In this document: piece after piece, positions 28,018 to 54,068 of the stretch
Numbering within the stretch: position 1 is the stretch's first letter
Layout of the letters: every line of letters starts with the position of its first letter
Made by a program: the position numbers and the translations under genes
From: Acidobacteriota bacterium
GTDB taxonomy: Bacteria > Acidobacteriota > Terriglobia > Acidiferrales > UBA7541
Direction: 5' to 3'
Assembly (NCBI GenBank): GCA_003223215.1
Contig: QHYH01000094.1
Coordinates: forward strand, 44,563 to 108,562
Length of the DNA: 64,000 nucleotides
The notes under the pieces: model-generated
The model's database searches: none
What the model was told of the DNA's origin: nothing
Seen by the model: the letters and a program-made list of their open reading frames with translations, nothing else

Positions 28018-30384
28018 ATGACCAGCGGTGTTTCCAAGTCGGATCAAACCCTCCTCTCGGCGACCGGCGGAAAGACCAGTTTTTGGCGAGTGGAAGGATC
28101 CCTGATGGAGCTGGGTGCCCTGCGGCCGGTAGGCTTCTTCACCTGGAATGCGCGAAGCTTCTCCGAGCGCTGGGCGCGACGCGCCGGGATGGCGGGGATG
28201 GCCCTGGCCCGGCCGTTTGCCTATGCGGCAAGCCGCACTTTCGCCACGCGGTTTTTGCACTTGTTACTCCGAGGCGTGAGCCGCGACCGCTTGGACCTGC
28301 TCGGCGAAGAGTATTTCCACTACGTGCTGAAGCCGCAACTGCGGCAAGGGGCCGTGGAAAAGATCGTCGCTGCGGCGCGCGAGGGAGGACATGTCGTACT
28401 GGTCGGGCAACTGCTCGAAAACATTCTTCGCCCGCTGGCACATCATCTCGGAGCGGAAGCGTTTATCGCAAACAGGCTGGAGTACCGCAATGGCCAGGCA
28501 ACGGGTCGGTTGCTCGATCCCGTGGTGCGCCCGCGGGGACCTCTGGCGCGGCTGGCGAGCAGTCCGGTGGATGGACGAATTCCTCGAGAAAGGCTGTTGA
28601 GCCAGCTTGGTTGGACCGAGAAGCCGGAACTTCTGGAAGAAGGCATCCAGCCGACGGCCCGGCCGAAGTCTTCGATTAAGAAGCCGGTGGCGGTTTTTGG
28701 GGCGGCGCCGCGTGTTGAGGGCTTCTCCGTGCGCGAAGCCTTGGCGAACCGGCACATTCTGCTTGTCGGGGTCACCGGTTTCATTGGCAAAGTCTGGCTC
28801 GTGGATTTACTCGAAAAGATTCCGAACATCGGCAAAATCACGCTGCTCATTCGGCGCAACCGCACTACTTCGGCGCAACGGCGATTCGAGAAAATCGTCG
28901 AGGAGTCCCCGGCGTTTGATACGCTCGACAAACAACACGGCCGAAAGCTTGGCGCCTTCCTGAGCGAAAAGGTGGAGGTAGCCGAAGGAGACGTGAGCCT
29001 GCCCGGTCTGGGCCTAGATGAGGCTACGCAAGCGCGACTGGAAAGATCGCTCGACCTGATCGTAAACAGCGCCGGCCTGACGGATTTCAACCCGGATTTG
29101 CGCGATGCTCTCTCCTCAAATGTGGATTCAACGCTTCATTTGCTCGGATTTCTGCGGAAATGCAAGCATTCCGGGCTGATGCACCTTTCGACCTGTTACG
29201 CGGCGGGCATGCGCGACGGGCGCGTCGAGGAACAGTTGCAAGACAATTACAATCTGGCGAAAGACTCACATTTCGATGCGGAAAATGAGATTGCCTCGCT
29301 GCGCGAGCGGATCCGGCGTATCGAAGCGCGCGCGGAGAGTCCCGAATTGAGCAAAGCGCTTCGCCGGCACGTTCTGGGGCGAGGCGGGGACGAAACTGCG
29401 GCGCCTGCGGCGGAACTCGAGGGCGTTCTCCGCCGCAACCGCGCGCGCTGGGTGCGCAACCGTCTGACCCACGTAGGCCTGCGCCGCGCGCAACACTTGG
29501 GTTGGCCCAACACTTATACGTTCACGAAGAGCCTGGGCGAATCGATTCTGGCGCGGCAGGGCAAGGACCTTCCGATTGCCATTGTGCGCCCATCGATCGT
29601 GGAGAGCTCGGAGCGCTCGCCGTTTACCGGGTGGAACGAGGGCATCAACACGTCGGGGCCGCTGTCGTACCTACTCGGCACAAACTTCCGCCAGCTTCCC
29701 TCGAATGAGCGGAAATGCCTGGATGTGATTCCCGTGGACATGGTGAGCCGCGGGATGACCCTGATTGCCGGCGCGCTCGTGACGCGGCGGCACGCGCGGC
29801 TATACCAGTTGGCAACTTCGGCCATCAATCCGGTCAACATGGGACGCAGTATTGAGCTGACGGGACTGGCGCACCGCAAGCATTACCGCAGCTCGCAGAC
29901 GATTGAAAACTGGTTAAAGGTGAAGTTCGAGACCATTCCCGTATCGAAGCAACGCTACGAGCGGCTGTCGATTCCCATGCAGAAAGCCGTGGTCTCTGGT
30001 ATCAATCGCGTGGCCGCAACCCTGCGCCTGAAGAAAGCGCCGTTTGCCAAGGCTGAGCGGGATCTGATTCGAGCGCAAAAACTCATCGAGCTTTATGAGC
30101 CCTTCATTCTGCACAACGAGCACGTTTTCGAATGCGAAAACGCGCGGCTGCTTTCCGCCGCGCTGCCGCCGGGGGAGCGGGAGCTTTTCGATTTCACGCC
30201 GGAAGCCGTGGACTGGTGGGATTACTGGATTAACGTGCACATCCCCGCCTTGCGGCGTTGGTGCTACCCGCTGATGGAAGGGCGGCCGCTAGAAGCGCGC
30301 GAGCCGCGCGCCCTCGAGTGGAACGGCAACGGCCAGCCTGCAGAGCATGCGGCTCTTTCCAAAGCGGCGCCGTCGTCCGATTGA
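28018..30384 (+). CDS. Fatty acyl-CoA reductase fused to a degenerate HAD domain
   Basis: A 788-residue fusion. Residues about 20-200 align with HAD-IB phosphatases, but the catalytic Asp is gone: the family's DVEGTL is RVEGSL here (Arg24). The motif II Ser/Thr region reads [16 protein letters not shown], and no GDxxxD motif IV follows, so this domain should be catalytically dead. Residues about 245-560 are a Rossmann reductase of the fatty acyl-CoA reductase type: GVTGFIGK near 251 for NADPH, and the catalytic YTFTK at 500-504. The tail resembles the male-sterility C-terminal domain. Expected reaction: acyl-thioester to fatty alcohol. ATG 28018 is a best guess; a GTG lies at 27979. It heads the lipid cluster. 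Confidence 0.82.
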
Positions 30385-30386
30385 CC

Positions 30387-31541
30387 ATGGCGACCTTCGT
30401 AACCGGCGCGACCGGCTATTTGGGCAGCTACGTGGCGGCGGGGCTCCTCACCGGGCATCGCGACCAGCTGAATTTGCTGGTTCGCGCGAAAACGGAACAA
30501 GAAGCGCGCGAGCGGTTGTGGACCTCCCTGCAACTGCACTTTAATTTTCCGGAATTCCTCGAATACCTCGACGCGCGCGTGCGCATTTTCCGCGGGGATT
30601 TGACCGCGGAAGAATTCGGCTTGCCCGGTGAGGAATATCGCGCGCTGGTGGATACGACCGATTCGCTGATTCATTGCGCGGCTTCGTTGAACCGCAAATC
30701 GGAGAAGCAGTGCCTGAATGTGAACCTGCGCGGCACCCTCGAAGTGATTCAACTTGCGCGTCGGGCCCATGACCGCCACGGTTTGCGCAGGTATTCACAC
30801 GTTTCTACGGTGGCAGTCGCGGGAAAAAGGAAAGATGCTTTGGTGACGGAGGAACATGCGATCGACTGGGAACGTTCCGACTACGATCCTTACGCGCGCA
30901 CAAAAAAGTTTTGCGAGCACATGGCGAACCGCTGGCTACCCGAAGTGCCGAAGACGATCTTCCGCCCCGCCATTGTGCTGGGAGACAGCAGGCGGCCCGA
31001 GACGTCACAATTCGATATGGTGCAAGCGGTGCACTTGCTCGCGAGGTTGCCAGTGCTTCCCCTGCGGCCTCACGATCGAATCGACATCGTGCCGGCGAAC
31101 TACGTAGGTAAAGCGGTGGTAACCATTCATCAAAAAGATGCGCCCGTGCATGGCATCTATCACCTGTCGTCTGGAAGGGGATCCGAGACGTACCTGGAAA
31201 TAACCGATGCGATCGCCAAGGCGGGCGGAATGCGCAGGCCTTTGTTCTGGCCGTGGCTCGGCGGACCGTTTTCTCGAGCGGTGAATTGGACGGCAAATCG
31301 CCGCGGGGCGGTCGGGCACGCGGCTTCCCGGCTGAAAGTATTTTGGCCGTATTTGGATTGGAATACGGTGTTCGACAATTCGCGCGTGGTCGCGGAACTG
31401 GGCGAGGCGCCCGCAAAGTTTTCAACGTATGCCGCAGGGCTCCTAAAATTCAGCCGGGAAAATCATTTTCGTTATCCGGCAAAGCCCTGGCCAGGCAATT
31501 CGAGCGTGCAGAGGACCGCGGTGGGGAGAGCAAGCGCATGA
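30387..31541 (+). CDS. Extended SDR / thioester-reductase-like NAD(P)-dependent oxidoreductase
   Basis: A 384-residue protein of the NAD_binding_4 (male-sterility) type. [18 protein letters not shown] is the nucleotide-binding motif, and the catalytic Tyr-Lys pair is in [28 protein letters not shown] supplies the Ser. Such proteins reduce acyl-thioesters or act as epimerases or dehydrogenases. The ATG comes two bases after the stop of the fatty acyl reductase gene, so the two are translationally coupled. A role in the same acyl or alcohol pathway is inferred from the operon; the exact substrate is unknown. Confidence 0.82.
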
Positions 31542-32977
31542 CCGATTTTCTTCTCGTCGCATGGCTGAGCGCGCTCGTCGAGCTGCGGCGCTTTGGCTGG
31601 ATGCTCGGTCTCGGCAAGCCCTGGAGCGCCGGCGAAAAACTGAAGCTGCTCTTCGCGGGCTACAACGGCACGCGGAACACCGGCAGCGACGTGCGCGTTC
31701 AGGAAATGTTGCGGCAGCTGCGGCACGTGCTCGGAGCGGACAACGTCGACTTCAGCGTGATGACGCAGGATTTTGGGCGAACCAAAGGCTACTTTGAAGG
31801 CACGCGGCAGGTCTATCTGCCCGACGTTTTTCCGCCGTTCTTGTTTCACGAGGTGCGGCCGAACCACGGCGTCATCGCGTGCGAAGGCTCGATGTTCAAA
31901 AGCAAGTTCGCCAACGCGTTGACAACGATGATGATCGGTTCGCTGGGGCTGGCCTCCGCCGAAAACAAACTTTCGATTGGCTACGGCGGCGAGGCGGGGC
32001 AGATGGACGGCTTGGTCGAATCCATGTGCCGGCGGTACGTCAAGGACTCGCTGGTCATCACACGCAACTTGGAATCCCAGCAACTGTTGAGTTCGCTCGG
32101 GATCCCCACCGAGCTCGGCACCGACACCGCGTGGACCTTTGAGCCGCACCCGGCAGAATACGCGCGAAAGACGCTGCGCCAGGCGGGCTGGGATGAAAAG
32201 ACGCCGATTCTCGTTTTATGTCCTATCCACCCCTATGTTTGGCCGGTGAAAGCTTCGATCGCTAAATACCTTGCACGCCGGACGACCGGCGCCTTCAAGG
32301 ATAGTCAGTATCGCACCGTCTACTTTTTCCAGTCCGGAGCGGAGGTGCAAAGGAAATACGGGCAATACATCAACGGCTTCAGCAAAGCGACACAAGCTTT
32401 CTTGCAACGGCACCGGGTATTTCCGATCCTCGTGGCCATGGAGCGGCTCGACGCCGATGCCTGCCGCAAGATCGCCGAGCAGCTCCCTGGCACTCCGGTA
32501 TTTGACCCCGACGACTATGACATGTTCCAGCTGGTTTCCATCTTGCGAGCGTGTTCCTACATGGTATCCTCGCGCTACCACGGCATCGTGACCTCCATGC
32601 CGAGCCTGGTAGCCTCGGCGGGGGTGACCATGGACGAGCGCATCCAGAACCTAATGCGCGAACGCGGCCATCAAAGTCTATTGCTGACCGTGGATGATCC
32701 TGAACTCGAATCGAAGCTGCTCGAGGTGATGGAAGCGCTGGTGAAGGAAGCGGAGGGCGTTCGCGAAGGCATCGGGCGGACGGTGGTGCGCAATCTCAAA
32801 GTGATGGCGCGCATGGGCACGTTTCTCGAAAACGCCGTGCATCGCCAGTATCCGGGCTTCCCCATCCGCAGCGGGGTCCTTTCCTGGGAAGACTACCTGC
32901 CGCCGCTCGGCGAGAACCTTCTTCACCTCCTGGAACGTTATGACGCGTCTGCGGGCACGCTGGCCGCGGCTCACTGA
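31538..32977 (+). CDS. Polysaccharide pyruvyl transferase-family protein
   Basis: A 479-residue protein whose ATG overlaps the preceding stop (ATGA). The pattern [53 protein letters not shown] and [11 protein letters not shown] matches the polysaccharide pyruvyl transferase fold, a GT-B-like enzyme family that transfers pyruvyl or related groups to sugars. A short hydrophobic stretch at the N-terminus may contact the membrane. Inside a lipid operon it may modify a lipid-linked sugar or head group; this is inference. Confidence 0.8.
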
Positions 32978-32983
32978 TCGTTC

Positions 32984-34675
32984 ATGGCAAATTTTCTTGA
33001 AAGTCTTTTCGCGCAGTTGAACAGGGCAGATGACCGCGTCGTGCTGCGGGAGATTCGCGGCGAGCAATTTTTGAGTGTAGCCGGAAGCGAATTGCTTGAG
33101 CAAGTAGGAAAAGTGCGGGCGTTCCTGCGCCATTCCGGCATCCAGCCCGGAGACCGCTGCGCTTTGCTGGCGCCCAATTCCATCGCCTGGGTTGCGATCG
33201 ATCTGGCAATGATGGCCGAGGGCGTAATCGTGGTGCCCCTTTATGCCCGCCAGGCGGCGGACGAACTCGCGGGCATGATGAAAGATTGCCGGCCGCGACT
33301 GCTTTTTGTGGGCGATGCTGCACCCGGAGAAGCGCTCGCGCAGGCGTGGCACGACGCGCCACCGCGAGTCACGCTCGACCAAGCACTGAACGAAAATGTG
33401 TCCAAAGCCGCCGGTCCCGGCGGGGCTGTTGCGCGCGCGGACTCCGAAATCGTCACGATCATTTACACGTCCGGCACTTCCGGGGAGCCGAAAGGCGTGT
33501 GCCTCAATGTGGGAAACCTGAACTATATGCTCGGGCGAACCACCGAACGCCTCGGACAACTGATGACTGCCACGGGCGGAGGAGGACCGGACCGCGTTTT
33601 TCACTACCTGCCCTTTAATTTTGCGGCGTCGTGGCTGCTTCTGCTTTCCTGCCTGACGCGCGAGACGACACTTACGCTTTCAACCGACCTGAACCGGCTC
33701 GCGGATGAAATCCGTCTATCGTCGCCGAACTACTTCCTGAACGTACCCACACTGCTGGAACGCGTGCGTCGCGGCGTGGAAGAAGCGCTTTCCAAGCGCG
33801 CTGCGCCGATTCAGTTGCTCGATGGGAAATCACGCGCGGCGTGGCAGCGCCAAAAAGCCGCCAGCGCTAGCGCCACGGACAGACTTTGGCTCTGGCTTGC
33901 GAAGAAACTCATCTTCAGCAAAATCAAGGCGCGTTTTGGCCACGACCTGCGCGCTCTGATTTGCGGTTCAGCGCCGCTTGCTCCCGAGACGCAACAATTT
34001 TTCCAGATGCTGGGCATTCCCGTCTTACAGGCGTACGGACTCACGGAGACCACAGGCATCTGCACGATGGATGATCCGCGGGAACCCGCGGAACCAGGTT
34101 ATGTTGGCTCCGCAATTCCTGGAATGGAGATGAACGTCGGCGAAAACGAAGAAATCGTCACCCGCGGGCCGCATATTTTCCCTGGCTACTGGAACCGTCC
34201 CGAAGAAACGGCGCGGGTGCTTCAGGATGGTTGGTTCCACACCGGCGATCAGGGCGAGAGGAACGCTCGCGGGAAATGGCGCATCAGCGGGCGGATTAAA
34301 AACCTGATTGTTCTGAACTCGGGACATAAGGTTGCGCCGGAGCCGATGGAAGAGAAAATTGCCGGGCTCCTTCCCGCGGCCCAGCAAGTGGTGATTGTCG
34401 GGAACGGGCGCAGCTGCCTTTGCGCGCTCATTGCGGGAGGAGTCGAGCCTGTTGAGGTTCAGGCAGCGATCGACGAGGTGAATCGCGAACTTCCGCATTA
34501 CCGCCAGATCAGAAATTTTAAGCTAATCGGCAATGCGTTCACGCCGGAGAGCGGGCTGCTGACTTTAAATGGCAAGCTTCGCCGCGACGCCGTCAGCGCG
34601 CGCTTCGCCTCCGAAATCTACGCCATGTACGAAGAGAAAAAAGAACGCGAGGCGGTCAGCAGGCAGCACGCATGA
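32984..34675 (+). CDS. Acyl-activating AMP-dependent ligase (acyl-CoA synthetase-like) 1
   Basis: A 563-residue ANL-superfamily enzyme that adenylates a carboxylic acid, probably a fatty acid, and loads it on CoA or an acyl carrier protein. Core motifs: IIYTSGTSGEPKGV (ATP loop), QAYGLTETTG, FHTGDQGERNARGKWRISGR and the C-terminal catalytic Lys in TLNGKLRRD. It begins six bases after the pyruvyl-transferase-family gene and ends overlapping the crotonase start. With an ACP encoded 1.2 kb downstream, acyl-ACP loading is plausible. Confidence 0.87.
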   Translation: MANFLESLFAQLNRADDRVVLREIRGEQFLSVAGSELLEQVGKVRAFLRHSGIQPGDRCALLAPNSIAWVAIDLAMMAEGVIVVPLYARQAADELAGMMKDCRPRLLFVGDAAPGEALAQAWHDAPPRVTLDQALNENVSKAAGPGGAVARADSEIVTIIYTSGTSGEPKGVCLNVGNLNYMLGRTTERLGQLMTATGGGGPDRVFHYLPFNFAASWLLLLSCLTRETTLTLSTDLNRLADEIRLSSPNYFLNVPTLLERVRRGVEEALSKRAAPIQLLDGKSRAAWQRQKAASASATDRLWLWLAKKLIFSKIKARFGHDLRALICGSAPLAPETQQFFQMLGIPVLQAYGLTETTGICTMDDPREPAEPGYVGSAIPGMEMNVGENEEIVTRGPHIFPGYWNRPEETARVLQDGWFHTGDQGERNARGKWRISGRIKNLIVLNSGHKVAPEPMEEKIAGLLPAAQQVVIVGNGRSCLCALIAGGVEPVEVQAAIDEVNRELPHYRQIRNFKLIGNAFTPESGLLTLNGKLRRDAVSARFASEIYAMYEEKKEREAVSRQHA

Positions 34676-35475
34676 AGAGCTTCAAGGGCAAGACGCTGCG
34701 CTGGGAATGGCGCGAAGGGTGCATCGAACTGACACTCGACCATGAACCTGCCAATGAAATTGGCACGGCCATGCTCGAGGAGCTGGAAATATTCGCTGGC
34801 GGCTTTGGCACGCTCGCCCCCGAGACTTCCGCCTGCATTATCTCGAGCGCCAGAAAATCTGTTTTTTCTGCAGGCGGAGACCTGCGCGAACTCTATCATC
34901 ATGCAATGTCGATTCCTGAGGGAGAACGCCTAAAAGGAATTCGCCGCTTTCTGGAGCGCATTCACGCGGTTATGAACGCAATCGACGCGACCCCATTTGT
35001 CACCATTGCGGCGGTTCACGGAGCTTGCTTTGGCGGGGGACTTGAGCTCGCCCTCGCTTGCGACATCATCGTCGCCGACAAAATGGCGCGCTTTGCTTTT
35101 CCGGAGCTGCGCCTGGGGTTTATTCCCGGATTTGGAGGCGTCCCGCGTCTGAAACGCGACCTGGGCAACGCAGTCGTGCGGGATCTGCTGTTTACGGGCC
35201 GCACCCTTAATGCCAGTCGCGCACATGCCTTGGGGCTCGTGGCACAGCTTGCCGGTGAAGGAGAAGCTCTTCGCGTCGCCCGGTCCACGGCCACCCAGGT
35301 GTCAAAATATGATCCGGTGGCGCGCGCGGCCGCCAAGGAGTTCATGAAACCAGTTCCGCACGAGGAGTTGCGGGAGGAAATTGACATTTTCTGCGAACTT
35401 TTCACCCGGCCCGAAGTCATGGCTGCCCTCAAGAAATTCGTCGAAGACTCTGGCCCCATGCCATATCTGCCTTAG
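34672..35475 (+). CDS. Enoyl-CoA hydratase/isomerase (crotonase family)
   Basis: A 267-residue crotonase. The oxyanion-hole loops are SARKSVFSAGGDLRELY and HGACFGGGLELALACD. Both acidic residues of true hydratases can be matched: Glu in GGGLEL and Glu in FPELRLGFIPG. Hydration of an enoyl-thioester, or a related reaction in chain tailoring, is expected. The start ATG overlaps the ligase stop (ATGA), so it is in the same operon. Confidence 0.87.
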   Translation: MKSFKGKTLRWEWREGCIELTLDHEPANEIGTAMLEELEIFAGGFGTLAPETSACIISSARKSVFSAGGDLRELYHHAMSIPEGERLKGIRRFLERIHAVMNAIDATPFVTIAAVHGACFGGGLELALACDIIVADKMARFAFPELRLGFIPGFGGVPRLKRDLGNAVVRDLLFTGRTLNASRAHALGLVAQLAGEGEALRVARSTATQVSKYDPVARAAAKEFMKPVPHEELREEIDIFCELFTRPEVMAALKKFVEDSGPMPYLP

Positions 35476-35488
35476 CTTGGAACATCTG

Positions 35489-35878
35489 ATGAAAGTTCCA
35501 GGCACGGATCACGTACAGCTGGCCATGTCAAAAGGAAGTGAAGACCGCGTACGCGGTTTCTATAGCAAAGTGCTCGGCATGAAAGAGACGACAAAACCGC
35601 AAGCGCTGGCCGGACGTCGCGGTTGCTGGTTCGCCTCGGGAGCGGCGCAGGTGCACCTCGGGGTTGCGTACTCCGCCTTGGTCGGCGAAGCATTGGACGA
35701 GATTCTCGCGAAATGCCAAGCCGCTTTGTCTGCCCACTAGACCGGATGCGGACAGGGACGGGCGCCGCCGCGTGCGCGTCTTCGAGCCTTTTGGGGTCGT
35801 CTCGAGTGGATGGAAGCCAGCCACGGCGGAAGCGGGCTGAACCGACACGGCGGGTTTTTCTTCTTTCCGGGAGAGTGA
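35489..35878 (+). pseudogene. VOC/glyoxalase-like gene with two frameshifts
   Basis: From ATG 35489 the protein reads VPGTDHVQLAMSKGSEDRVR, then FYSKVLGMKET and AQVHLGVAY, a VOC domain. At about 35725-35740 the frame breaks. The next segment, RPDADRDGRRRVRVFEPFG, continues the domain in another frame, and after the G run at 35793-35796 the last strand RLEWMEA continues in a third frame to a stop at 35876-35878. At least two indels are therefore needed to break a normal protein of about 130 residues. It sits between the crotonase and the acyl carrier protein and is probably a dead passenger. Confidence 0.7.
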
Positions 35879-35894
35879 TAAATTCTGGGGGGAT

Positions 35895-36137
35895 ATGCGC
35901 ACGCTCGAACAAACGACCCGGGAGGTGCTCGATCTGGCGGCCAAGCATTTTCAATTGCCGGCGGGCTCGCTCGCGCCAGAAGACGATTTTTTCAAAAAGC
36001 TGGGTATTGACAGCCTGCAAACCCTGGAGATGCTTTCGCGCCTGGAGAATCATTTCGGTATCGAGCTGCCCGATTACGAGGTTCAAGGCGTGAGCGACTT
36101 CAAGACCCTAGCCGAACGCATTCAGTCCCGCCTGTGA
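35895..36137 (+). CDS. Acyl carrier protein
   Basis: An 80-residue acidic protein with the phosphopantetheine attachment motif LGIDSLQTLEM (Ser40) and the usual helix pattern of acyl carrier proteins. It carries acyl or hydroxyacyl intermediates as thioesters. A G-rich site precedes ATG 35895. It lies between the crotonase and the second AMP ligase, which implies a dedicated carrier for this cluster rather than the housekeeping AcpP, whose usual fab neighbours are absent. Confidence 0.92.
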   Translation: MRTLEQTTREVLDLAAKHFQLPAGSLAPEDDFFKKLGIDSLQTLEMLSRLENHFGIELPDYEVQGVSDFKTLAERIQSRL

Positions 36138-36556
36138 GCGAGCCGCTTCAGCCACAGAGTCACAGAGAGACGGCGATCGTGAGAAGACCCTTGGCTGAAT
36201 CCACAGCGCGCGGCGAGTATTTGACTGGCAGAGTCATTGCCTGCCCGATCGAGCTTCATCGACGTCCTGGCCCCGCCCTCGCGGAATCGATTTACCCATC
36301 GGCGCTGGCAGTTAATTCACGGACGCATGGAATCCGATACCAACGTCAGGCCGCGGTTCCCGCCAATGACCGGGGAAAGGTCATTGGCGCTCACAAACTG
36401 GATTTTATCGCAGGGAACACTGTCGCGTTGGGGCCGCTAGGCGACGTCCCTTACCGTTTATTACGCGAGGGCGTCAAGAGATCATTCTCTGAAACTTATT
36501 TGTCCGCTGCTTCCGCCTCTCCATGGCTGACTTGTTTTCGCCAATGCTGGATCTGA
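36134..36556 (+). pseudogene. Remnant of a GxxExxY-family protein
   Basis: The open frame encodes IELHRRPGPALAESIYPSAL, followed by GIRYQRQAAVPANDRGKVIG and HKLDFI. These track the GxxExxY protein pattern (IExHRxLGPGxxExxY ... Q...YkG), but the diagnostic Gly is changed to Ala and the C-terminal VELK part is missing. The GTG at its start overlaps the ACP stop and its end overlaps the next gene by about 35 bases. I read it as a decayed gene inside the operon. Confidence 0.5.
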
Positions 36557-38253
36557 GCAAATATCCGTCCATCGGAGCGGCGTTGAAGGACGCTCTAGAC
36601 CGCTTCGCAGCCGAAGTGTGTTTGATTGAGGCCGACCGCGAGCGCGAGAAGGAACGCCTGACGTATCGCGATTTCAAGTCGCGCGCCCATCAGCTGGCGA
36701 AAGCTTTCGAGGATGCAGGCTTCTCCTCGGGAGATCGCGCCAGCATCATCATGACGAATCAGTCTAGGTGGCTGATTTCGGCATATGCCATCTTCTTTCG
36801 AGGGGGCGTGCTGGTGCCGCTCGACTATAAGCTCACGCCCGATGAACAGTGGCAGCTCCTCAAACATTCTGGCGCTTCGGTGCTGGTTACCGAATATCCT
36901 ATCTGGCGGCAACTCGGGGCCTCCGGGGGACGCGCATCGACGAACGTGCAAACCGTTCTTGTGACCGAAGCTCCGCCCAACGCGGAACTCGCAGGCGCGC
37001 TGCGCTGGGAAGAATTTCGCGCAACGGGCGAGCCGGTACTCGTTCCACGCGCACGCAGAGACACCGCTTGCATCGTGTACTCTTCGGGAACTGGCGGCCG
37101 GCCCAAGGGCTGCATGATGACGCACGAAAATTATTTGGAGCAGTGCGTCGCCTTGACTTCGCTCTACCCCTTTTGGCCTGGCGTCCGCTACCTCAGCATT
37201 CTGCCGACCAACCACGCCATCGATTTCATGGTGGGATTTCTTGGACCTTTCACTTGCGGCGCTGCTGTCGTACATCTGCGCACGCTGCGACCCGAATATG
37301 TGCGCGACGCTTTTCCGAAGTATAAGATCACGTACGTCAGCCTTGTGCCTTTGGTCCTGAAGAATTTGCAGAAAGGCCTGGAGGCGCGCCTTGATGCTCT
37401 GCCCGCGGGCAAACGCCGACTTTTCAATGCGCTCGTGGCCATCAACAAAGCGGTGACCAAAGGTCGGCCACGCCCGCAGATCAGCCGTCTGCTGTTAAAG
37501 CAAGTGCACGAAGCGTTTGGCGGCGAATTGCGCGCCATCATTGTGGGTGGGGCATTCAGCGAGCCGCACACGTTGCAGTTCTTCTACAACCTTGGGATTC
37601 CCGTGGCCAATGGCTATGGGCTGACCGAGGCGGGCACCGCCATCACCGTCAATGATCTCAAACCGTTTCGCGCGGATACTGTTGGCAAACCGCTGCCCGG
37701 GATGGAGGTGCGCATCGTGAACGCCGCCAGTGATGGCATTGGCGAAGTCGCCGTCCGCAGCAAAACGGTGATGAACGGTTATCTCAACGATCCGGAACTC
37801 ACCGCGGAGACGATTGTTGACGGCTGGCTGATGACCGGCGACCTGGGAAGATTCGACGAGCACGGCCACTTGCAGCTCGCCGGGCGCAAGAAAAACATGA
37901 TCGTCACCGAGGAGGGCAAAAATATCTACCCCGAAGACATTGAAGGCGTTTTCGAGGGCCTGCCCGTAAAGGAATTCTGCATTTTTGCGGCCAACTACAT
38001 CTGGCCCAAGCGTTCCATGACCGGAGAACAGCTTGTGCTCGCGCTTCATTTGGAACCAGGCCAACGACTTAATAACGAGCTCCGCGCCGAAATCAGCGCG
38101 CGCAACCAGCGCCTGCTAAACTATAAGCGGATTCACGGGGTCGTTCTTCTCGAGGAGGATTTTCCTCGAACGGCTTCTCTGAAGATCAAGAGAAATGTCC
38201 TGGCCGAGCGTCTCGCGAAGCTGGACCGAGCGGCTGCAATTCTGCCCTTGTGA
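36523..38253 (+). CDS. Acyl-activating AMP-dependent ligase (long-chain acyl-CoA synthetase-like) 2
   Basis: A 576-residue ANL enzyme. [20 protein letters not shown] is the ATP loop, [12 protein letters not shown] the second, [20 protein letters not shown] the hinge region, and the catalytic Lys is in [10 protein letters not shown]. It differs clearly from the first ligase of the cluster, so the two probably load different acids or different carriers (CoA and ACP). The start could be ATG 36523 or ATG 36544; neither has a strong ribosome site. Downstream is the diacylglycerol-kinase-family gene. Confidence 0.87.
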
Positions 38254-38314
38254 CTCTTCGTGCCGGTTCGGCCGAGAATTCTGTGTTTCCGGAGACAAAG
38301 CTCCTCATTCAGGC

Positions 38315-39223
38315 ATGCACCAAACACAACGCTTTTTCGCCATCGTGAACCCCGCTGCCGGCGGCGGCCGCTCCGCGAAACTCGCTGGGCCGGCGCTTGC
38401 GCGTTTGCGTCAAAACAACTTGCAAGTGGACAGCGTGGCGTCGACGTGCCCGGGACACGCTGTCGAGCTTGCCCGCGAGGCCTACGATCAGGGCTATCGC
38501 CAGTTTCTTGCGGTCGGCGGAGACGGAACGACACACGAAATCTTGAACGGCGTGTTTGCGGGCCGCAAGTCCGTCGAGCGCGTCACCCTCGGATTCCTTC
38601 CCCTAGGGACCGGCAATTCCTTCCTGCGCGATTTCTCGAACAACGGGGCGGAGGCTTCCGCTCAGGCGATTTTGGAGAATCGCAAGCGTGTCATTGATCT
38701 GATTCGCCTAAATCATGCCACCGGCGAAGTTTTTTCCTTCAACCTTTTGAGCGTCGGCTTTACCGCCGATGTCGCGGCGCTGACCAACCGCGCGTTCAAG
38801 GCCTTCGGACCTCTGGGCTACCTGCTTGGGGTATTCGTCCGGGTGGTGCAGTTGCACCGCCGTTCCTTCGCGCTGCGCTGCGACGAAGACCAGGAATGGG
38901 ACGAACGGTGTTCGCTCTTTCTTACGTTCAACAACAGCAAGTACACGGGTGGCACCATGCTGATTGCGCCGCAAGCCGATCCGGCAGATGGGTTGATCGA
39001 ATTTGTCCGCTGGGGGCCGATTGGGCGGCTGGGTCTGCTGCGCAACTTGCCTCGGCTCTACGATGGCTCGCATGTCCACCATCCGCTCGCTTCGCGGCGC
39101 GCGGTGCGCCACGTGGAATTCAACGTGGCCGAGCCGGTGGACATCATGATCGACGGCGAGGTTGCGAGACTGGAATGCCGGTCGCTCGATATTATTCCCT
39201 CAGCGCTTGATGTGTTCCTATGA
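38315..39223 (+). CDS. Diacylglycerol kinase-family lipid kinase
   Basis: A 302-residue protein of the DAGK catalytic family. AIVNPAAGGGRS and VGGDGTTHEILNG form the nucleotide site, and FLPLGTGNSFLRDF matches the third motif. Such enzymes phosphorylate diacylglycerol, sphingoid or undecaprenol-type lipids at the membrane. ATG 38315 is chosen from homology; the upstream frame has none. Its stop overlaps the plsC start (ATGA), coupling lipid phosphorylation and acylation. The preferred lipid is not known. Confidence 0.87.
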   Translation: MHQTQRFFAIVNPAAGGGRSAKLAGPALARLRQNNLQVDSVASTCPGHAVELAREAYDQGYRQFLAVGGDGTTHEILNGVFAGRKSVERVTLGFLPLGTGNSFLRDFSNNGAEASAQAILENRKRVIDLIRLNHATGEVFSFNLLSVGFTADVAALTNRAFKAFGPLGYLLGVFVRVVQLHRRSFALRCDEDQEWDERCSLFLTFNNSKYTGGTMLIAPQADPADGLIEFVRWGPIGRLGLLRNLPRLYDGSHVHHPLASRRAVRHVEFNVAEPVDIMIDGEVARLECRSLDIIPSALDVFL

Positions 39224-40005
39224 AAACGGCCTGGTTCGTTCTGCGCAGCGTCCTTCTTTGGATTGCCAGCGGTTTGCACTTCTTTCTGGCGGTGCCCGTG
39301 CTTGTTTTTCTGGGAATTTTTCTCGACGCTCGCAAACACGATAGCCTTCAGCGGGGTTTGTGCCGGCGAATCGCTTTTCTTTCCGGAGCGAAGGTCGAGG
39401 TTCGCCGTTCACCTGGCTTCGACGCGAACCGCACTTCGTTCTTTTTTTCGAACCACGTCAACCTCTTTGATCCGTTCATGCTTTACTGCGCCATTCCGCA
39501 GTTTGTGCGCGGCTGGGAACTGGAATCACACTTCAAGATCCCTGCGTACGGCCCGCTCATGAAACGCTTTGGGAACGTTCCCGTACCGAACATACGGCGT
39601 CCCTCGGATTTAAAACGGATGTGGCGACTCACGCTGGAAGCCATTAACACCGGCACCAGCTTGGTCATTTTTCCAGAGGCCAAGCGAACTCGCGACGGTC
39701 ATGTCCTCGAATTCCAGGATGGCGGCTTTCGCGTCGCGCAGCAGCTCGGCGTTCCCATCGTCCCGGTGAGCCTTGTCGGCTCATTTCAGCATTTCCGCAC
39801 TGGGCACTGGATGCTCTGGCCGGGAAAAATCACCGTCTACTTGCACGATACCATCGAGACGAAAGGTCTCGGCAAAGAGGACGTGCCCGCACTACGCGAC
39901 CGCGTGCGCGAAATTATCTCTGCGCCGGTGGAAGAAGCGCTCAAAGCGCAAAGCAGACACCCGAGCCGCAGTTTGGAGGTTCGAGTGAGAGGCGGGAACC
40001 TGTAA
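39220..40005 (+). CDS. PlsC-type 1-acyl-glycerol-3-phosphate acyltransferase
   Basis: A 261-residue acyltransferase with an N-terminal membrane segment (LHFFLAVPVLVFLGIFLD). The catalytic NHVNLFDPF is the HX4D motif, and FPEAKRTRDG is the FPEGTRS-type substrate motif with two changes (Gly to Ala, Thr to Lys). It transfers an acyl group to a glycerol-phosphate or related lipid. Overlap with the preceding lipid kinase gene shows translational coupling. The altered motif III may indicate an unusual acceptor. Confidence 0.87.
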   Translation: MKTAWFVLRSVLLWIASGLHFFLAVPVLVFLGIFLDARKHDSLQRGLCRRIAFLSGAKVEVRRSPGFDANRTSFFFSNHVNLFDPFMLYCAIPQFVRGWELESHFKIPAYGPLMKRFGNVPVPNIRRPSDLKRMWRLTLEAINTGTSLVIFPEAKRTRDGHVLEFQDGGFRVAQQLGVPIVPVSLVGSFQHFRTGHWMLWPGKITVYLHDTIETKGLGKEDVPALRDRVREIISAPVEEALKAQSRHPSRSLEVRVRGGNL

Positions 40006-40103
40006 GGGTCCTTGTTGGCCCCCTTGCGCCCCTTCCCCTTTTCCCAACAGCGTCTTTGCTTTGAGCTCAACAATAGGCATGAGCCATAGAAGCAGCCGCG
40101 AAG

Positions 40104-40721
40104 TTACAGCGAAAGCTTGATTCCGGGCAAGGTACGCCCGGCCTTGGTTTCCTGCCAGGTGAAAACAATGCGGTGAATCACGGTGATGGTTGACACGACC
40201 GCAATCACCCACAACACCGGCCCCATGCGATTGAAGAGTCCACCAATGATGAGCAGCACCAGCCGCTCTGGACGCTCCATGAATCCGACTTTGCACAGCG
40301 GAATCAGCGATTCGGCGCGGGCTCGTGCATAGCTCACCATCACCGAACCCGCGGTCGCCACCGCCGCAAGTATCACGTACGGCGTGTGCCCGCTCACGGA
40401 GTAGTACACCAGCAGGCCCATGTACAGCGCCATGTCCGCGTAACGGTCGAGCGTCGAATCGTAAAACGCGCCGAACGCTGTCACGCGGTTCTGTTTCCGC
40501 GCCACCTGACCGTCCAGCATGTCCAGAAACCCCGCGCAAAAAATGATGATGGCCCCGGTGCGAAATCCGCCGATGGCAAAAAAGGCCGCAGCTCCAAAGT
40601 TCACCACCAACCCTAGAAAAGTGAGGATGTTTGGATTGATTCCCGTTGCCGCAATGGCTCCGACGATCTTATCGAGCAGCCACTTGCTTCCAATGCCAAT
40701 TGCCCCGGTGAAGGTAGCCAT
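40104..40721 (-). CDS. CDP-alcohol phosphatidyltransferase
   Basis: A 205-residue membrane enzyme with the full CDP-alcohol signature DG-x2-AR-x8-G-x3-D-x3-D, read here as DGQVARKQNRVTAFGAFYDS followed by TLDRYAD. It makes phospholipids from CDP-diacylglycerol and an alcohol such as glycerol phosphate or inositol phosphate. VGFMERPERLVLL is reminiscent of the phosphatidylinositol-phosphate-synthase-like group, but I do not claim the alcohol. It faces the plsC gene tail to tail and extends the lipid theme on the other strand. Confidence 0.88.
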   Translation of the reverse strand: MATFTGAIGIGSKWLLDKIVGAIAATGINPNILTFLGLVVNFGAAAFFAIGGFRTGAIIIFCAGFLDMLDGQVARKQNRVTAFGAFYDSTLDRYADMALYMGLLVYYSVSGHTPYVILAAVATAGSVMVSYARARAESLIPLCKVGFMERPERLVLLIIGGLFNRMGPVLWVIAVVSTITVIHRIVFTWQETKAGRTLPGIKLSL

Positions 40722-49802: not shown

Positions 49803-50204
49803 TCACGCTCCTAGTGACGGGCGATGGGAAACGTGCGTTTGCCCCTGAAGGACCTCCCGGATCGCAGCAACAAGCTCAGCGCCCGCATCACTCTTTAACA
49901 CATATCCGGATGCGCCAGCGTCAAGAGCCTCGCTAGCAAAGGCTGGGTCCGTGTACATCGTCACAAGAATGATCTTGGATCGTGTATTCATCTCCCGCAG
50001 CTTGCGAGTCGCTTCCATCCCATTGAGCACCGGCATCGATAAATCCATCACAATTACATCAGGTTGGAGTTGCCGCTCGGCCGCCAGCGCTTCTTCACCG
50101 TTTGTGGCCGTACCCACTACCTCAAAATGACGGCTCAGAATGGAGCACAGGCCCTCCAGGAACATCCTGTGGTCATCTACCAGCAGAACTCGCGGGAGAC
50201 TCAT
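49803..50204 (-). CDS. Response regulator, receiver domain only
   Basis: A 133-residue NarL-type receiver: VLLVDDHRMF acidic pocket, phosphoacceptor Asp54 in VIVMDLSMPVLNG, and the switch Lys in SGYVLKSDAG. NarL-family regulators normally continue into a LuxR helix-turn-helix after about residue 140; here a stop follows VSHRPSLGA, so output is either lost or by protein contact. Its start overlaps the 3' end of the hybrid kinase gene by 32 bases, so it is the cognate partner. Confidence 0.87.
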   Translation of the reverse strand: MSLPRVLLVDDHRMFLEGLCSILSRHFEVVGTATNGEEALAAERQLQPDVIVMDLSMPVLNGMEATRKLREMNTRSKIILVTMYTDPAFASEALDAGASGYVLKSDAGAELVAAIREVLQGQTHVSHRPSLGA

Positions 50205-53200
50205 CGCTATCCTTTTTCAGGGGGATCAGGGCTTCAACCACGGTCCCGTGAGCCGCTTTGGACTTGAAAACCAAACTGCCTCCGACCAGACGTACTCGCT
50301 CTTGCATGCTGATTAAGCCCAATCCTTCCCTTGGCTTTGCCGATTCGACGTCGAAGCCCTTTCCGAAATCCTCCACCTTTAGATCGATTGCCTGGTCCGA
50401 GGCTTTCACCGTCACATCAACTTTTTTCGATTCCGCGTGTTTCCAAATATTTTGCAAAGCCTCCTGCGTGACGCGATAAAGACAAAGCCCGATCTCTTCC
50501 GGCAGATCCTTGGGGATGTTTTCCGCCGAAAAATTGACCACCGTGCCGTTTTGACTAGCATACGACTTGCATTCAGCTCGCAGTGCTGCCGCCAATCCCA
50601 TTTCCCGGAGAGTAGCGGGGTGAAGTACCCTCGCAAAGTCCTGGATTTCCCGCGCCACATTTCCGAATTCTTCTTGACAGTTACGCAACTTTTCGGCTGC
50701 CACATCAGGCTGAGCGGGAATGAGCAGGGCGATCTCGGCGAGGCGCAGATTGAGCAAAGCCAGCTTTTGTCCAAAAGCGTCGTGCAACTCGCGCGCCAAA
50801 TTTTTCTTTTCATTCTCTGCAGAGACCAGCAAACGGGCTGAGAGCATCTGGAGTTCGCGCTTGCTGAGATACAATTCGGCCTCGGCCCGCTTCCGCGCGG
50901 TGATGTCCTCGATGGCCAAAAGAACCTTCTGTAACCCGAGTCCCTCCTGGTGGAGCTCACGAGCATTGAGCAGCATGGTCTTCCGTCCGATCTTTGGGAA
51001 TTCCTGCTCCACCTCGAAATTTATAATTTCATTCTTCTCACGCACCACCCTCTCCAGCAATTCGCGCAGCCTGGGAATATTCCATTGGCCCTGGCCAAGT
51101 TCATAGAGAGATCGGTTTTCTGTTTCTTCATGCTTAACCTGAAATATCTGGTAAAAAGCCCGATTGGCGGAGACCACACGTAACTGCGAGTCTAAAACAA
51201 GAAGTGACTCGCCCATGGCCCCGACAATCGCGCTTGAAAGCTGCTTTGCGTCGTTAATATCGGAGATTGAGATCAAAAGCCCTTCTACCTCGTCGTTTCC
51301 TATCCGATAAGGCCGCATTCGCAAGAGATACCAATATCCGTTTTGATCTCGCACCTCTGCTTCCACGGGGCGCTCGGTTCGGATCACTCCGGAAGCCATC
51401 TGATCGAGGTCCGGTAAGTCCAGGTTCGACCGGATTTGACCGATGGGACGTCCCGCATCCGCTGCGATCAGATTCAGCAATTTCGCGGCCGACGGAGTAA
51501 ACCGTCGAATGCGCCGATCCGCTCCCAGGATCACAATGGGAACCTCAACTGTGTTTAGCAAATTGTTCAACTCGCCAGCCGTCTGGGTCAGTTCGAGGTT
51601 CCGGCTCTGCAATTCGTCGTTCAGCGTCGTCAATTCTTCATTGGAGGATTGCAACTCTTCCTTAGCCGTCTCCAACTCCTCGTTCGTGCTCTGGAGCTCC
51701 TCGTTGCTGGAAAGAATCTCCTCGTTGGCTGCCCTCAGCTCTTCAGAAGCAGCTTCCTGGTCTTCAACGAGAGCACGCAGGTTCTCCTGTGTGGCGACCA
51801 GTTCTCGCTCCAGCTGTTGTATCTCTTTGGCTTGTTCTGAACTTCTTGATATACGTTCAACCTTGCTACGTTGTTTCTTGTCAGGCACCTGACGACGTAG
51901 ATTCTGGAAGAGCACCACGAAGTCCGAGTCTTTCGTTAGCCGGCCCGCGATCGGTACCACTTCCACATCGACTAGGATTGATTCGCCGTCGCGCTTGAAG
52001 CAAACGTTCTCGCGGCGAGCCGCCCCGGACCTCTTCGCCTTTTGGACGGCCGCGCGGATCTGTAGCATCAAATCCGGCCTGGCCAGCTTCAGTAGACTGA
52101 AGCTGGCCTCTCCCAGCGCCGGCTTGAGAAAGGGGCTTGTGTCGCCTTGGAAGAAAAGTACCTGTAAACTCGGATCCACTACAAGGGCCGGCGGAGCATA
52201 CCGTTCTAAGACGATCCGCTCCGCCTCTTTCCGCAGGTCAAACGCAGGTGGCTGCAACAACGCGGCGGCAGGGGCCATTGTCTTGAATTCCGGCTCAGCC
52301 GCCGCACGGAATTCAGTTACCACCTGCCCAGGCGACATCACCCGTGTATAAACGTTCGCTCTGCGGTCGCTCAGCGAGAACAGGGCGGGCGCAGCGCCGA
52401 CGCTTTCTGACTTGCCCAGGAGCAGAAATCCCGTTGGCTTGAGAGCGTAGTGAAAATAGCCCAGAACCTTCCTTTGGAGAGGGGTGGTAAAATAAATCAG
52501 CAGGTTCCGGCAACTGATCAGATCCATCCGCGAAAAGGGAGGGTCCCTGGTCACATCGTGCCGGGCGAACACACATAGTTCACGAAGCTCTTTGATGATT
52601 TGGTAGCCACCCTCGATCTTGGTGAAGAACCGGCGCAATTGCTCCCGTGAAAGGTCGGCCGTCAAGGATTCGGAATAAACCGCCGCCCTCGCCTTCTGAA
52701 TGTCTTTGTCACTGATGTCGGTAGCGAAGATCTGAATTCTGGTCTGAGCGGCACTGTCGCCCAAGAACTCACTCAGCGCCATGGCGATGGAATGGACTTC
52801 CTCACCACGGGAGCATCCGGGCACCCAGATCCGGACGGGTTCCCCTGGCTCCAGGAGTGAGAATATTTGTGGAAAGACGGAGGTCTTCAGATACTCAAAT
52901 GCTCCCGGATCTCGGAAGAAGCCGGTGACATGAATTAGCGCGTCTTCGAACAAAGCTTTCACTTCGTCCGGGTGCTCCCCAACGTACTTGGCGTAATCGG
53001 GTAATGTGTCGCATCGTCGAACCAGCATTCTTCGGGCAATCCGTCGCCGGACGGTCGTCTGCTTGTAATTCGCGAAATCCACTCCGGTTGCGGTCCGGAG
53101 AAGGCGAAAGATTTTGCGCAGACCGCCATTTTCTACGGGAGAAGTTTCCGGTGCAACCGCTTCCGCCGCGATTTCCAGATACGGGTGCCGGATCAACCGA

Positions 53201-53931
53201 GCCAATTCCCGCGCTAGCCTCTCTGGCGGAAGTACGAGATCCACACACCCTGCAGCCACTGCGGTTAGCGGCATTGCTGGATACTTTGCACTTGCTTCAT
53301 CCTGCGCGAAGGTAATGCCTCCCTCGGCCTTGATGGCCTGCAATCCCTTGGTTCCATCCGACCCAATCCCAGACAGAATTATGCCGATCGCTTTGGTCTT
53401 CTGATCTTCTGCAAGAGAGCACAGGAAGGTGTCGATCGGGGTGTGCCGAATGGACCCGGTGGGTCGAATCATCAATTTCAAAAGCCCGCCTCGAATTGTC
53501 GCTTCGGTATTGGGAGCGATTACATAGACACGGTTCGGCTCTACATCCATGCCGTCCACTATCTGCGTAACGTTCATCGCAGTATCTTTCGCCAGCAGCC
53601 GGTTCAACATGCTTTCGTGCGTCGGGTCCATGTGCTGGATCAGCACAAAGGCCATGCCCGTGTCCGCAGGCAACGCTTTGAGAAAAGCTGTGAAAGCTTC
53701 CAGGCCACCCGCCGACGCGCCGATGCCAACGATAGGAAAAGGCTTCGACGCGGAGGGCTCAGCAGCTTGAGCGGTGAGCGCAGATTCGGCCGCCGACGCA
53801 TCCGTCGAGCGAGTTTCCTTATTCTTTTCCGGCGAAGTGGTCAGAACTTCCTCGTCGGAAGGCCCTGTCCCTTTTTGCAGCAATAGCTGACCGCCCTGCG
53901 GCCTTCCTGGGCCAGATTCTTTCTTGGCCAT
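50173..53931 (-). CDS. CheB-CheR-PAS-histidine kinase hybrid
   Basis: A 1252-residue multidomain signalling protein. Residues about 65-250 are a CheB methylesterase (catalytic Ser73 in GIGASAGGLEA and His100 in LIQHMDPTH). About 270-530 is a CheR methyltransferase (TGFFRDPGAFEYL, PVRIWVPGCSRGEE). A long coiled coil rich in EELxxxNEEL follows, then two PAS-like domains, then a HisKA_3 dimerisation helix with the phospho-His in ARELHDAFGQKLALLNLRL, and an ATPase domain (VTQEALQNIWKHAESK, EGLGLISMQERV). It probably senses an intracellular cue and phosphorylates the receiver encoded downstream. ATG 53931 follows GGGAG. No CheA or chemoreceptors are nearby, so a non-flagellar role is likely. Confidence 0.9.
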   Translation of the reverse strand: MAKKESGPGRPQGGQLLLQKGTGPSDEEVLTTSPEKNKETRSTDASAAESALTAQAAEPSASKPFPIVGIGASAGGLEAFTAFLKALPADTGMAFVLIQHMDPTHESMLNRLLAKDTAMNVTQIVDGMDVEPNRVYVIAPNTEATIRGGLLKLMIRPTGSIRHTPIDTFLCSLAEDQKTKAIGIILSGIGSDGTKGLQAIKAEGGITFAQDEASAKYPAMPLTAVAAGCVDLVLPPERLARELARLIRHPYLEIAAEAVAPETSPVENGGLRKIFRLLRTATGVDFANYKQTTVRRRIARRMLVRRCDTLPDYAKYVGEHPDEVKALFEDALIHVTGFFRDPGAFEYLKTSVFPQIFSLLEPGEPVRIWVPGCSRGEEVHSIAMALSEFLGDSAAQTRIQIFATDISDKDIQKARAAVYSESLTADLSREQLRRFFTKIEGGYQIIKELRELCVFARHDVTRDPPFSRMDLISCRNLLIYFTTPLQRKVLGYFHYALKPTGFLLLGKSESVGAAPALFSLSDRRANVYTRVMSPGQVVTEFRAAAEPEFKTMAPAAALLQPPAFDLRKEAERIVLERYAPPALVVDPSLQVLFFQGDTSPFLKPALGEASFSLLKLARPDLMLQIRAAVQKAKRSGAARRENVCFKRDGESILVDVEVVPIAGRLTKDSDFVVLFQNLRRQVPDKKQRSKVERISRSSEQAKEIQQLERELVATQENLRALVEDQEAASEELRAANEEILSSNEELQSTNEELETAKEELQSSNEELTTLNDELQSRNLELTQTAGELNNLLNTVEVPIVILGADRRIRRFTPSAAKLLNLIAADAGRPIGQIRSNLDLPDLDQMASGVIRTERPVEAEVRDQNGYWYLLRMRPYRIGNDEVEGLLISISDINDAKQLSSAIVGAMGESLLVLDSQLRVVSANRAFYQIFQVKHEETENRSLYELGQGQWNIPRLRELLERVVREKNEIINFEVEQEFPKIGRKTMLLNARELHQEGLGLQKVLLAIEDITARKRAEAELYLSKRELQMLSARLLVSAENEKKNLARELHDAFGQKLALLNLRLAEIALLIPAQPDVAAEKLRNCQEEFGNVAREIQDFARVLHPATLREMGLAAALRAECKSYASQNGTVVNFSAENIPKDLPEEIGLCLYRVTQEALQNIWKHAESKKVDVTVKASDQAIDLKVEDFGKGFDVESAKPREGLGLISMQERVRLVGGSLVFKSKAAHGTVVEALIPLKKDSDESPASSAGR

Positions 53932-54068
53932 CGGACAATTCTCCCAAACGTCCACGCAGTTTAGCAGTTTAAAACTCAATTCTCAAAGGTGAAAGCTAGC
54001 AAAGCTAGCAAAGGCGTATATAGTGGCTGCTTATTGAGAACGCAAACAGGGAGATACAGATAGTATAG
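53932..54068. other. Spacer with tandem 9-bp repeat
   Basis: The spacer between the kinase gene and the chimeric scar contains AAAGCTAGC twice in tandem (53992-54009) and a third partial copy. Its role is unknown; it could be part of the kinase promoter. Confidence 0.45.

Follow-up and report, generated by a model that had tools for sequence, protein, structure and literature searches.

The subject of this study is a lipid gene cluster in a 64,000-nucleotide stretch of the genome of an Acidobacteriota bacterium (contig QHYH01000094.1, positions 44,563 to 108,562; hereafter the window, that is, this stretch at its full length). Nine co-directional genes encode, in order, an HAD-like domain fused to a fatty acyl reductase (HAD-FAR), a short-chain dehydrogenase/reductase (SDR), a protein of the polysaccharide pyruvyl transferase family (PYT), an AMP-forming ligase (ligase 1), a crotonase, an acyl carrier protein (ACP), a second AMP-forming ligase (ligase 2), a YegS-type lipid kinase and a PlsC-type acyltransferase; a CDP-alcohol phosphatidyltransferase gene faces them. 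Several families of Acidobacteriota share the order of the cluster. Judging from the sequences, we propose at about even odds (a probability of roughly 0.5) that the cluster activates fatty acids, reduces them to fatty alcohols and likely builds precursors of alkylglycerol (ether) phospholipids. No publication describing this cluster turned up in the literature searched, which omitted most subscription papers.

Branched tetraether lipids are read as a record of past temperature and pH, and how Acidobacteriota form ether bonds is an open question that lies behind these lipids (PMC10087280, PMC11868695, PMC13274423); according to one of the three papers, the elb cluster or AGPS homologues occur in some subdivision 4 genomes only (PMC11868695). 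The cluster thus offers a concrete candidate gene set for abundant lineages such as gp1, gp2, Ca. Acidiferrum, Ca. Sulfotelmatobacter and Terriglobales.

Conservation and distribution of the cluster

In the GTDB collection, 332 stretches matched the PYT pattern, of which 305 code for a relative of PYT (E-value 1e-3); the best 80 of these 305 PYT-bearing loci (PYT identity 62-88%) formed our main conservation set. Throughout, G numbers denote genomes, G000 being the window's own, and L numbers denote fetched loci. The gene order, whose recurrence in Acidobacteriota genomes the preliminary description had proposed to check, shows no true break in the 80 loci; the one break flagged (L125) arose because the FAR query also hit the SDR gene. 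HAD-FAR was seen in 76 of these loci, SDR and PYT in all 80, ligase 1 in 79, crotonase in 71, ACP in 64, ligase 2 in 62, the kinase in 56 and PlsC in 29, so that the first seven genes occur together in 60 loci, the first eight in 54 and all nine in 29. Most of the missing genes coincide with contig ends.

Seven further loci (L031-L037), drawn from other families within the class or order, tell the same story: five carry all nine genes in order, L035 carries eight and lacks PlsC, and L033 carries five before its contig ends. In an even sample of the phylum (297 genomes), PYT occurs in nine genomes, including that of the window, and seven cluster loci were recovered from this sample (L055-L060 and L062), with all nine genes in L056, eight in L057, L058 and L059, seven in L062, five in L060 and four in L055. 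HAD-FAR is present in 36/36 genomes of the window's genus (partially in G015), and 52 of 61 relatives possess some match to it at 1e-20, a figure that includes distant FARs. Cluster genes compared with five relatives gave dN/dS ratios (nonsynonymous to synonymous substitution rates) of 0.01-0.15, one PlsC value being undefined because of saturation.

The records of the hosts bear the names Acidobacteria gp1, gp2, Ca. Acidiferrum, Ca. Sulfotelmatobacter, Terriglobales, Blastocatellia bacterium and Chloracidobacterium; all the named relatives are uncultured lineages, and no cultured host was found among them. One contig titled Betaproteobacteria (L091) carries the cluster with a PYT of 79% identity and is perhaps a mislabelled bin. 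A search of viral contigs for relatives of the SDR found none.

Two genes do not belong to the fixed core. PlsC, with 29 occurrences in the 80 loci, is ruled out as a constant part, and so is the CDP-alcohol enzyme, whose gene was seen next to it in no loci other than those of the window's genus and some near them. The preliminary description had listed both, and both are present in the window; across relatives they are optional.

Catalytic residues and nearest relatives of the enzymes

Residue conservation was assessed on 94 supplied loci, each gene being counted where it could be scored. The FAR half of HAD-FAR keeps the catalytic Tyr and Lys in 87/87 ungapped rows and matches a solved FAR structure at E=3.1e-43 (mean predicted local distance difference test score, pLDDT, of the HAD-FAR model: 70.9). 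In the HAD half, the motif I nucleophile Asp is replaced by Arg in 80 of 82 ungapped rows and by Ser in the other two, and motif IV is missing. The lost nucleophile and the missing motif exclude an active phosphatase, and the domain is, by its sequence, catalytically dead. The fusion of a reductase to a HAD-like domain that had been noticed earlier is present, with the HAD partner in this degenerate state.

The SDR keeps the Tyr and Lys of its YxxxK motif in 93/93 rows, and its best match among solved structures is MxaA, a terminal thioester reductase (E=3.1e-21). PYT scores 34.3 bits against PF04230 (cut-off 25.3), which makes it a member of the family, and residues R176, R346, H348 and R368 are kept in 94/94 loci. 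The mean pLDDT of its predicted model is 80.6; no pyruvyl transferase structure was among the 50 structure matches listed, which is not counted as evidence. Both catalytic Glu residues of the crotonase are present, their positions being kept in 83/83 ungapped rows and 84/84 rows, and the protein matches solved hydratases. The Ser of the ACP (74/74), the Asp of the GGDGT motif of the lipid kinase (66/66) and the HX4D motif of PlsC (35/35) are invariant, and the Lys of ligase 2 is kept in 64 of 65 ungapped rows. The CDP-alcohol enzyme is nearest to inositol-phosphate transferases, with 166.6 bits against NF040950 (cut-off 180). A second, distant PYT (34% identity) lies in genome G118 (L061:8485-10074), with no other cluster genes beside it.

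Relation to the elb operon

In a portion of PMC9131029, the elb layout of M. xanthus is given as elbB-elbE with no function described for elbC, and disruption of elbD is said to cut ether lipids strongly, that of the AGPS gene only slightly. Our comparison concerns Acidobacteriota operons whose architecture is that reported from M. xanthus, rather than the M. xanthus proteins themselves. With the HAD-FAR profile, 34 of the 297 sampled genomes yield a frame of 1440-1573 residues that begins with a FAR at its N-terminal end, and many of them separate HAD genes as well. Among 15 such or related loci that were fetched, 12 encode an ElbD-size protein matching the FAR, ligase and acyltransferase profiles, and an elbB-like HAD gene lies nearby in 11 of these 12. 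The two proteins scanned with Pfam (L173 and L183) possess FAR, ligase, ACP and acyltransferase domains, the set typical of ElbD. None of the nine PYT genomes is among the 34 with an ElbD-size frame, but chance alone predicts about one shared genome and only three candidates were scored per genome; the counts do not speak for mutual exclusion of the cluster and ElbD.

The link is clearest for HAD-FAR. Over 535 residues, the FAR of the window and that of the L173 ElbD-type protein share 36% identity (E=2e-98), and the fused HAD is 31% identical over 153 residues, in this one pair, to the HAD adjoining the same ElbD. A FAR tree of 39 rows places the fused FARs in one group (99/100), the stand-alone FARs in another (100/100) and the ElbD FARs in two; the root is carried by long branches, and we therefore claim no sister relation. 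For the ligases, a query with ligase 2 retrieves ElbD first in 8 of the 11 ElbD genomes and second in three; ligase 2 appears nearer than ligase 1 to the ElbD ligase domain, and the ligase link to ElbD is weak on sequence grounds. In G183, ligase 2 was not found in the fetched stretch, which ends with the contig.

PYT stands where the scanned Acidobacteriota elb operons have a LarA-like gene. The neighbour of 531-627 residues is LarA-like in seven scanned loci and a zinc alcohol dehydrogenase in L183 and L184; the L173 protein scores above the cut-off of the LarAH14/15/16 model. A LarA-type gene exists somewhere in 8 of 20 cluster genomes (G000 included) versus 11/11 ElbD genomes, and a replacement of LarA by PYT is only suggested by these counts. 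The seven loci with a LarA-like (nickel-pincer) protein are L173 (7505-9097), L174 (12458-14053), L182, L185, L186, L038 and L040; in them it lies close either to an elbB-like HAD together with ElbD or to a FAR that stands alone.

Of 20 ElbD or stand-alone-FAR loci, 10 have a YegS-type kinase no more than 2.5 kb from the FAR, a raw count with no chance level behind it. Stand-alone FARs have a lipid kinase within this distance in L038, L041, L042, L185 and L186, with an SDR-like gene as well in all of these except L186; this neighbourhood is another uncharacterised FAR setting.

Proposed pathway and alternative explanations

From the genes, their order, their homologies and the kept residues we infer the following route. 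A ligase would load a fatty acid onto ACP or CoA, and the FAR half of HAD-FAR, whose homology and residues are those of the family, would reduce the acyl chain to an alcohol while the dead HAD half may have a part in binding or assembly. The other partner, a three-carbon one, would be handled by the second ligase and the SDR. The alkylglycerol may then be phosphorylated by the lipid kinase, and the kinases near FAR in half of the related loci fit an enzyme acting on the product; PlsC, where present, would acylate the phosphorylated alkylglycerol, and in the window's lineage a head group would come from the CDP-alcohol enzyme.

The step that makes the C-O bond deserves separate consideration. 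The AGPS route would likewise use a fatty alcohol made by FAR. Using as query the 553-residue G316 protein (in L197), which matches solved AGPS at 7.6e-111, with a threshold of E 1e-25, we found AGPS in none of the 20 cluster genomes and in two of the 11 ElbD genomes, G316 itself and G106; a partial match to this query in G140 (6e-26) is likely a related oxidase. G000 encodes two FAD-oxidase_C proteins, and the one compared with solved structures resembles oxidoreductases of the lactate or hydroxyglutarate dehydrogenase type more closely than AGPS. PF09989, which we take as a marker of PlsA/Ger reductases, was not found in G000 nor in any of the three ElbD genomes searched, Thermotoga maritima and three other controls being positive. 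The genomes are incomplete, G000 being 97.65% complete, and these negatives are accordingly no proof of absence. Since neither AGPS nor the PlsA/Ger marker was found in G000, the candidates for the C-O bond step would lie within the cluster, namely PYT, the crotonase and HAD-FAR, and since AGPS was not found in the cluster hosts, the bond-forming step can be searched for among a handful of genes.

It is tempting to imagine that the cluster forms the glycerol ether by itself: PYT would supply a three-carbon unit derived from phosphoenolpyruvate, the crotonase would add the fatty alcohol across a double bond of an ACP- or CoA-bound acid, and the SDR would convert the resulting O-alkyl three-carbon acid to an alkylglycerol for the lipid kinase. 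This scheme comes to mind because the elb-type operons examined lack both PYT and crotonase and because the SDR has a terminal thioester reductase as its closest solved structure; we consider it improbable.

A number of observations weigh against the ether-lipid proposal and against too close a kinship with elb. The ether product is a prediction, wax synthesis and other alcohol pathways employ FARs too, and the PF09989 marker occurs in 6 of the 20 cluster genomes. None of the elb-type operons examined has a counterpart of PYT or of the crotonase. The ElbD ligase domain as query finds ligase 2 best in only 3 of 7 cluster genomes, with a near tie in G284. The cluster PlsC comes sixth of six matches of the ElbD acyltransferase domain (from L184) in G000 and is the best match in none of the five genomes that have one, among the seven searched with this domain; likewise, ElbE of L173 matches another SDR above the cluster SDR in 5/5 genomes. 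In view of these better matches, PlsC is rejected as the ElbD acyltransferase and the SDR as ElbE. As for gene content, no later cluster genes were found in L098, L106 and L114, all among the 80, though 2.4, 6.3 and 6.1 kb follow, nor in L055, L060 and L062 (2.4-7.5 kb follow across these six loci), and PlsC is missing in 26 loci having more than 1.5 kb beyond the kinase. Loss, relocation or assembly error are each possible in the six clusters that stop early.

Given the weak ligase link, an acyltransferase and an SDR that are outscored by other proteins, and PYT at the place of the LarA-like gene, the cluster is to be regarded, on homology, as a relative of the elb operon that is split and rearranged, and not as the elb operon; HAD-FAR is elb-related, the remaining parts appearing alike only in kind. 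The earlier suggestion of a split-gene ElbD is thus borne out for the FAR and HAD homology and for the four ElbD functions (FAR, ligase, ACP and acyltransferase) found as separate genes, and is not supported for the individual acyltransferase and SDR, for PYT and crotonase and for the HAD activity, the ligase link being weak. The domain comparison proposed at the same time, which we ran on Acidobacteriota ElbD-type proteins, has the same mixed outcome, favourable for the FAR and unfavourable for the acyltransferase.

Other products may be considered. In the first alternative, FAR makes a fatty alcohol for a glycolipid or pyruvylated lipid, and PYT modifies a sugar or head group, either by ketal pyruvyl transfer or in the manner of a glycosyltransferase, with no glycerol ether being formed. 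We judge this unlikely, although it is the alternative that survives best, as PYT belongs to the appropriate family; there is no further sugar enzyme among the nine genes, HAD-FAR is related to elb, and half of the related loci have the kinase next to FAR. Somewhat less likely still is a secreted or membrane-bound natural product, for which the ligases would load the ACP, the crotonase would act on the beta position and the two reductases would release aldehydes or alcohols. The two ligases, the dedicated ACP, the crotonase and the resemblance of the SDR to MxaA would suit such a route; yet the cluster genes include no ketosynthase and no polyketide synthase or nonribosomal peptide synthetase module, the lipid kinase accompanies 56 of the 80 loci, and conservation across families more resembles a core function. 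Wax esters or other storage lipids fed from fatty alcohols would agree with a FAR of the alcohol-forming type and its match to a solved FAR, but none of the cluster genes encodes a wax synthase domain, and wax synthesis has no use for ACP, PYT, SDR or kinase, which makes this option very improbable. Finally, an accidental run of unrelated lipid genes, in favour of which there is nothing beyond the variability of PlsC and the CDP-alcohol gene, deserves next to no credence, chance neighbourhood being ruled out by the order kept in the 80 loci and contradicted further by the seven loci of other families and the ATGA overlaps.

Gene layout in the window

Every lipid gene that the preliminary description had named between 28018 and 40721 is present at its place according to Pfam (Table 1). 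The nine plus-strand genes run from 27979 or 28018, depending on whether HAD-FAR starts at GTG 27979 or ATG 28018, to 40005, and the CDP-alcohol gene is convergent. The several ATGA overlaps announced earlier amount to three, at 31538-31541, 34672-34675 and 39220-39223. The kinase start is inferred, its reading frame being open from 38195.

Table 1. Genes of the lipid cluster, with window coordinates, strand and domain matches
Gene product	Coordinates	Strand	Domains
HAD-FAR: degenerate elbB-like HAD and alcohol-forming-type fatty acyl reductase	28018..30384	+	PF12710, PF07993, PF03015 (HAD, NAD_binding_4, Sterile)
SDR resembling terminal thioester reductases	30387..31541	+	PF07993 (NAD_binding_4)
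PYT: polysaccharide pyruvyl transferase family protein	31538..32977	+	PF04230 (PS_pyruv_trans)
Ligase 1, AMP-forming acyl ligase	32984..34675	+	PF00501 (AMP-binding), PF23562
Crotonase / enoyl-CoA hydratase	34672..35475	+	PF00378 (ECH_1)
ACP, acyl carrier protein	35895..36137	+	PF00550 (PP-binding)
Ligase 2, AMP-forming acyl ligase	36523..38253	+	PF00501 (AMP-binding)
YegS-type lipid kinase	~38315..39223	+	PF00781 (DAGK_cat), PF19279 (YegS_C)
PlsC-type acyltransferase	39220..40005	+	PF01553 (Acyltransferase)
CDP-alcohol phosphatidyltransferase	40104..40721	-	PF01066 (CDP-OH_P_transf)

The two gaps flanking the ACP gene contain pieces that look decayed: before it (35505-35740) a VOC-like piece, recognised by reading of the sequence and without Pfam match, and after it (36134-36556) a piece with a PDDEXK_3 match. 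The lengths of these gaps differ among relatives, and L082 has a match to the VOC-like piece in the same gap. The composition of the cluster region is unremarkable, and a promoter and terminator scan of the cluster gave signals no higher than in shuffles. Upstream of the cluster lie leuA and leuB; elsewhere in the window, the minus strand of 50173-53979 encodes a CheB-CheR-PAS-histidine kinase fusion of 1268 residues.

Comparison with known systems

PYT shares its Pfam family with the ketal pyruvyl transferases of CsaB type. It has an R-x-H motif and an Arg 20 residues further on, candidate PEP-site residues that recur in 94 of 94 loci, with a spacing like that of K328 versus H308 of CsaB (PMC10435577), the correspondence being one of motif and spacing rather than of alignment; by this spacing, PYT would have Arg for K328. 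It differs from CsaB by its score of 56.4 bits against the CsaB equivalog model, far under the cut-off of 213.1, and by its location in a lipid cluster.

The PlsA and Ger ester-to-ether reductases reach the same end, ether glycerolipids, by proteins unrelated to those of the cluster. Passages of PMC10087280 report that Ca. Solibacter usitatus makes ether lipids, reportedly without ElbD, and propose PlsAR homologues in it, and also that several subdivision 4 genomes possess the whole elb operon.

The elb operon of Myxococcus comprises elbA-E, in which ElbD combines FAR, acyl-CoA synthetase (ACS), ACP and acyltransferase. Single ElbD-type proteins exist in other Acidobacteriota, whereas the window cluster has the ElbD functions on separate genes; its HAD is fused to FAR and dead, an ElbB-like HAD with the catalytic Asp is not present in it, and it has an extra ligase and a crotonase. 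Published screens are described, in a part of PMC11868695, as using an ElbD query at 30% identity, and such screens could score HAD-FAR as an ElbD homologue. What the two systems have in common is a FAR of the same family, a related HAD domain, ligase, ACP and acyltransferase functions and an SDR.

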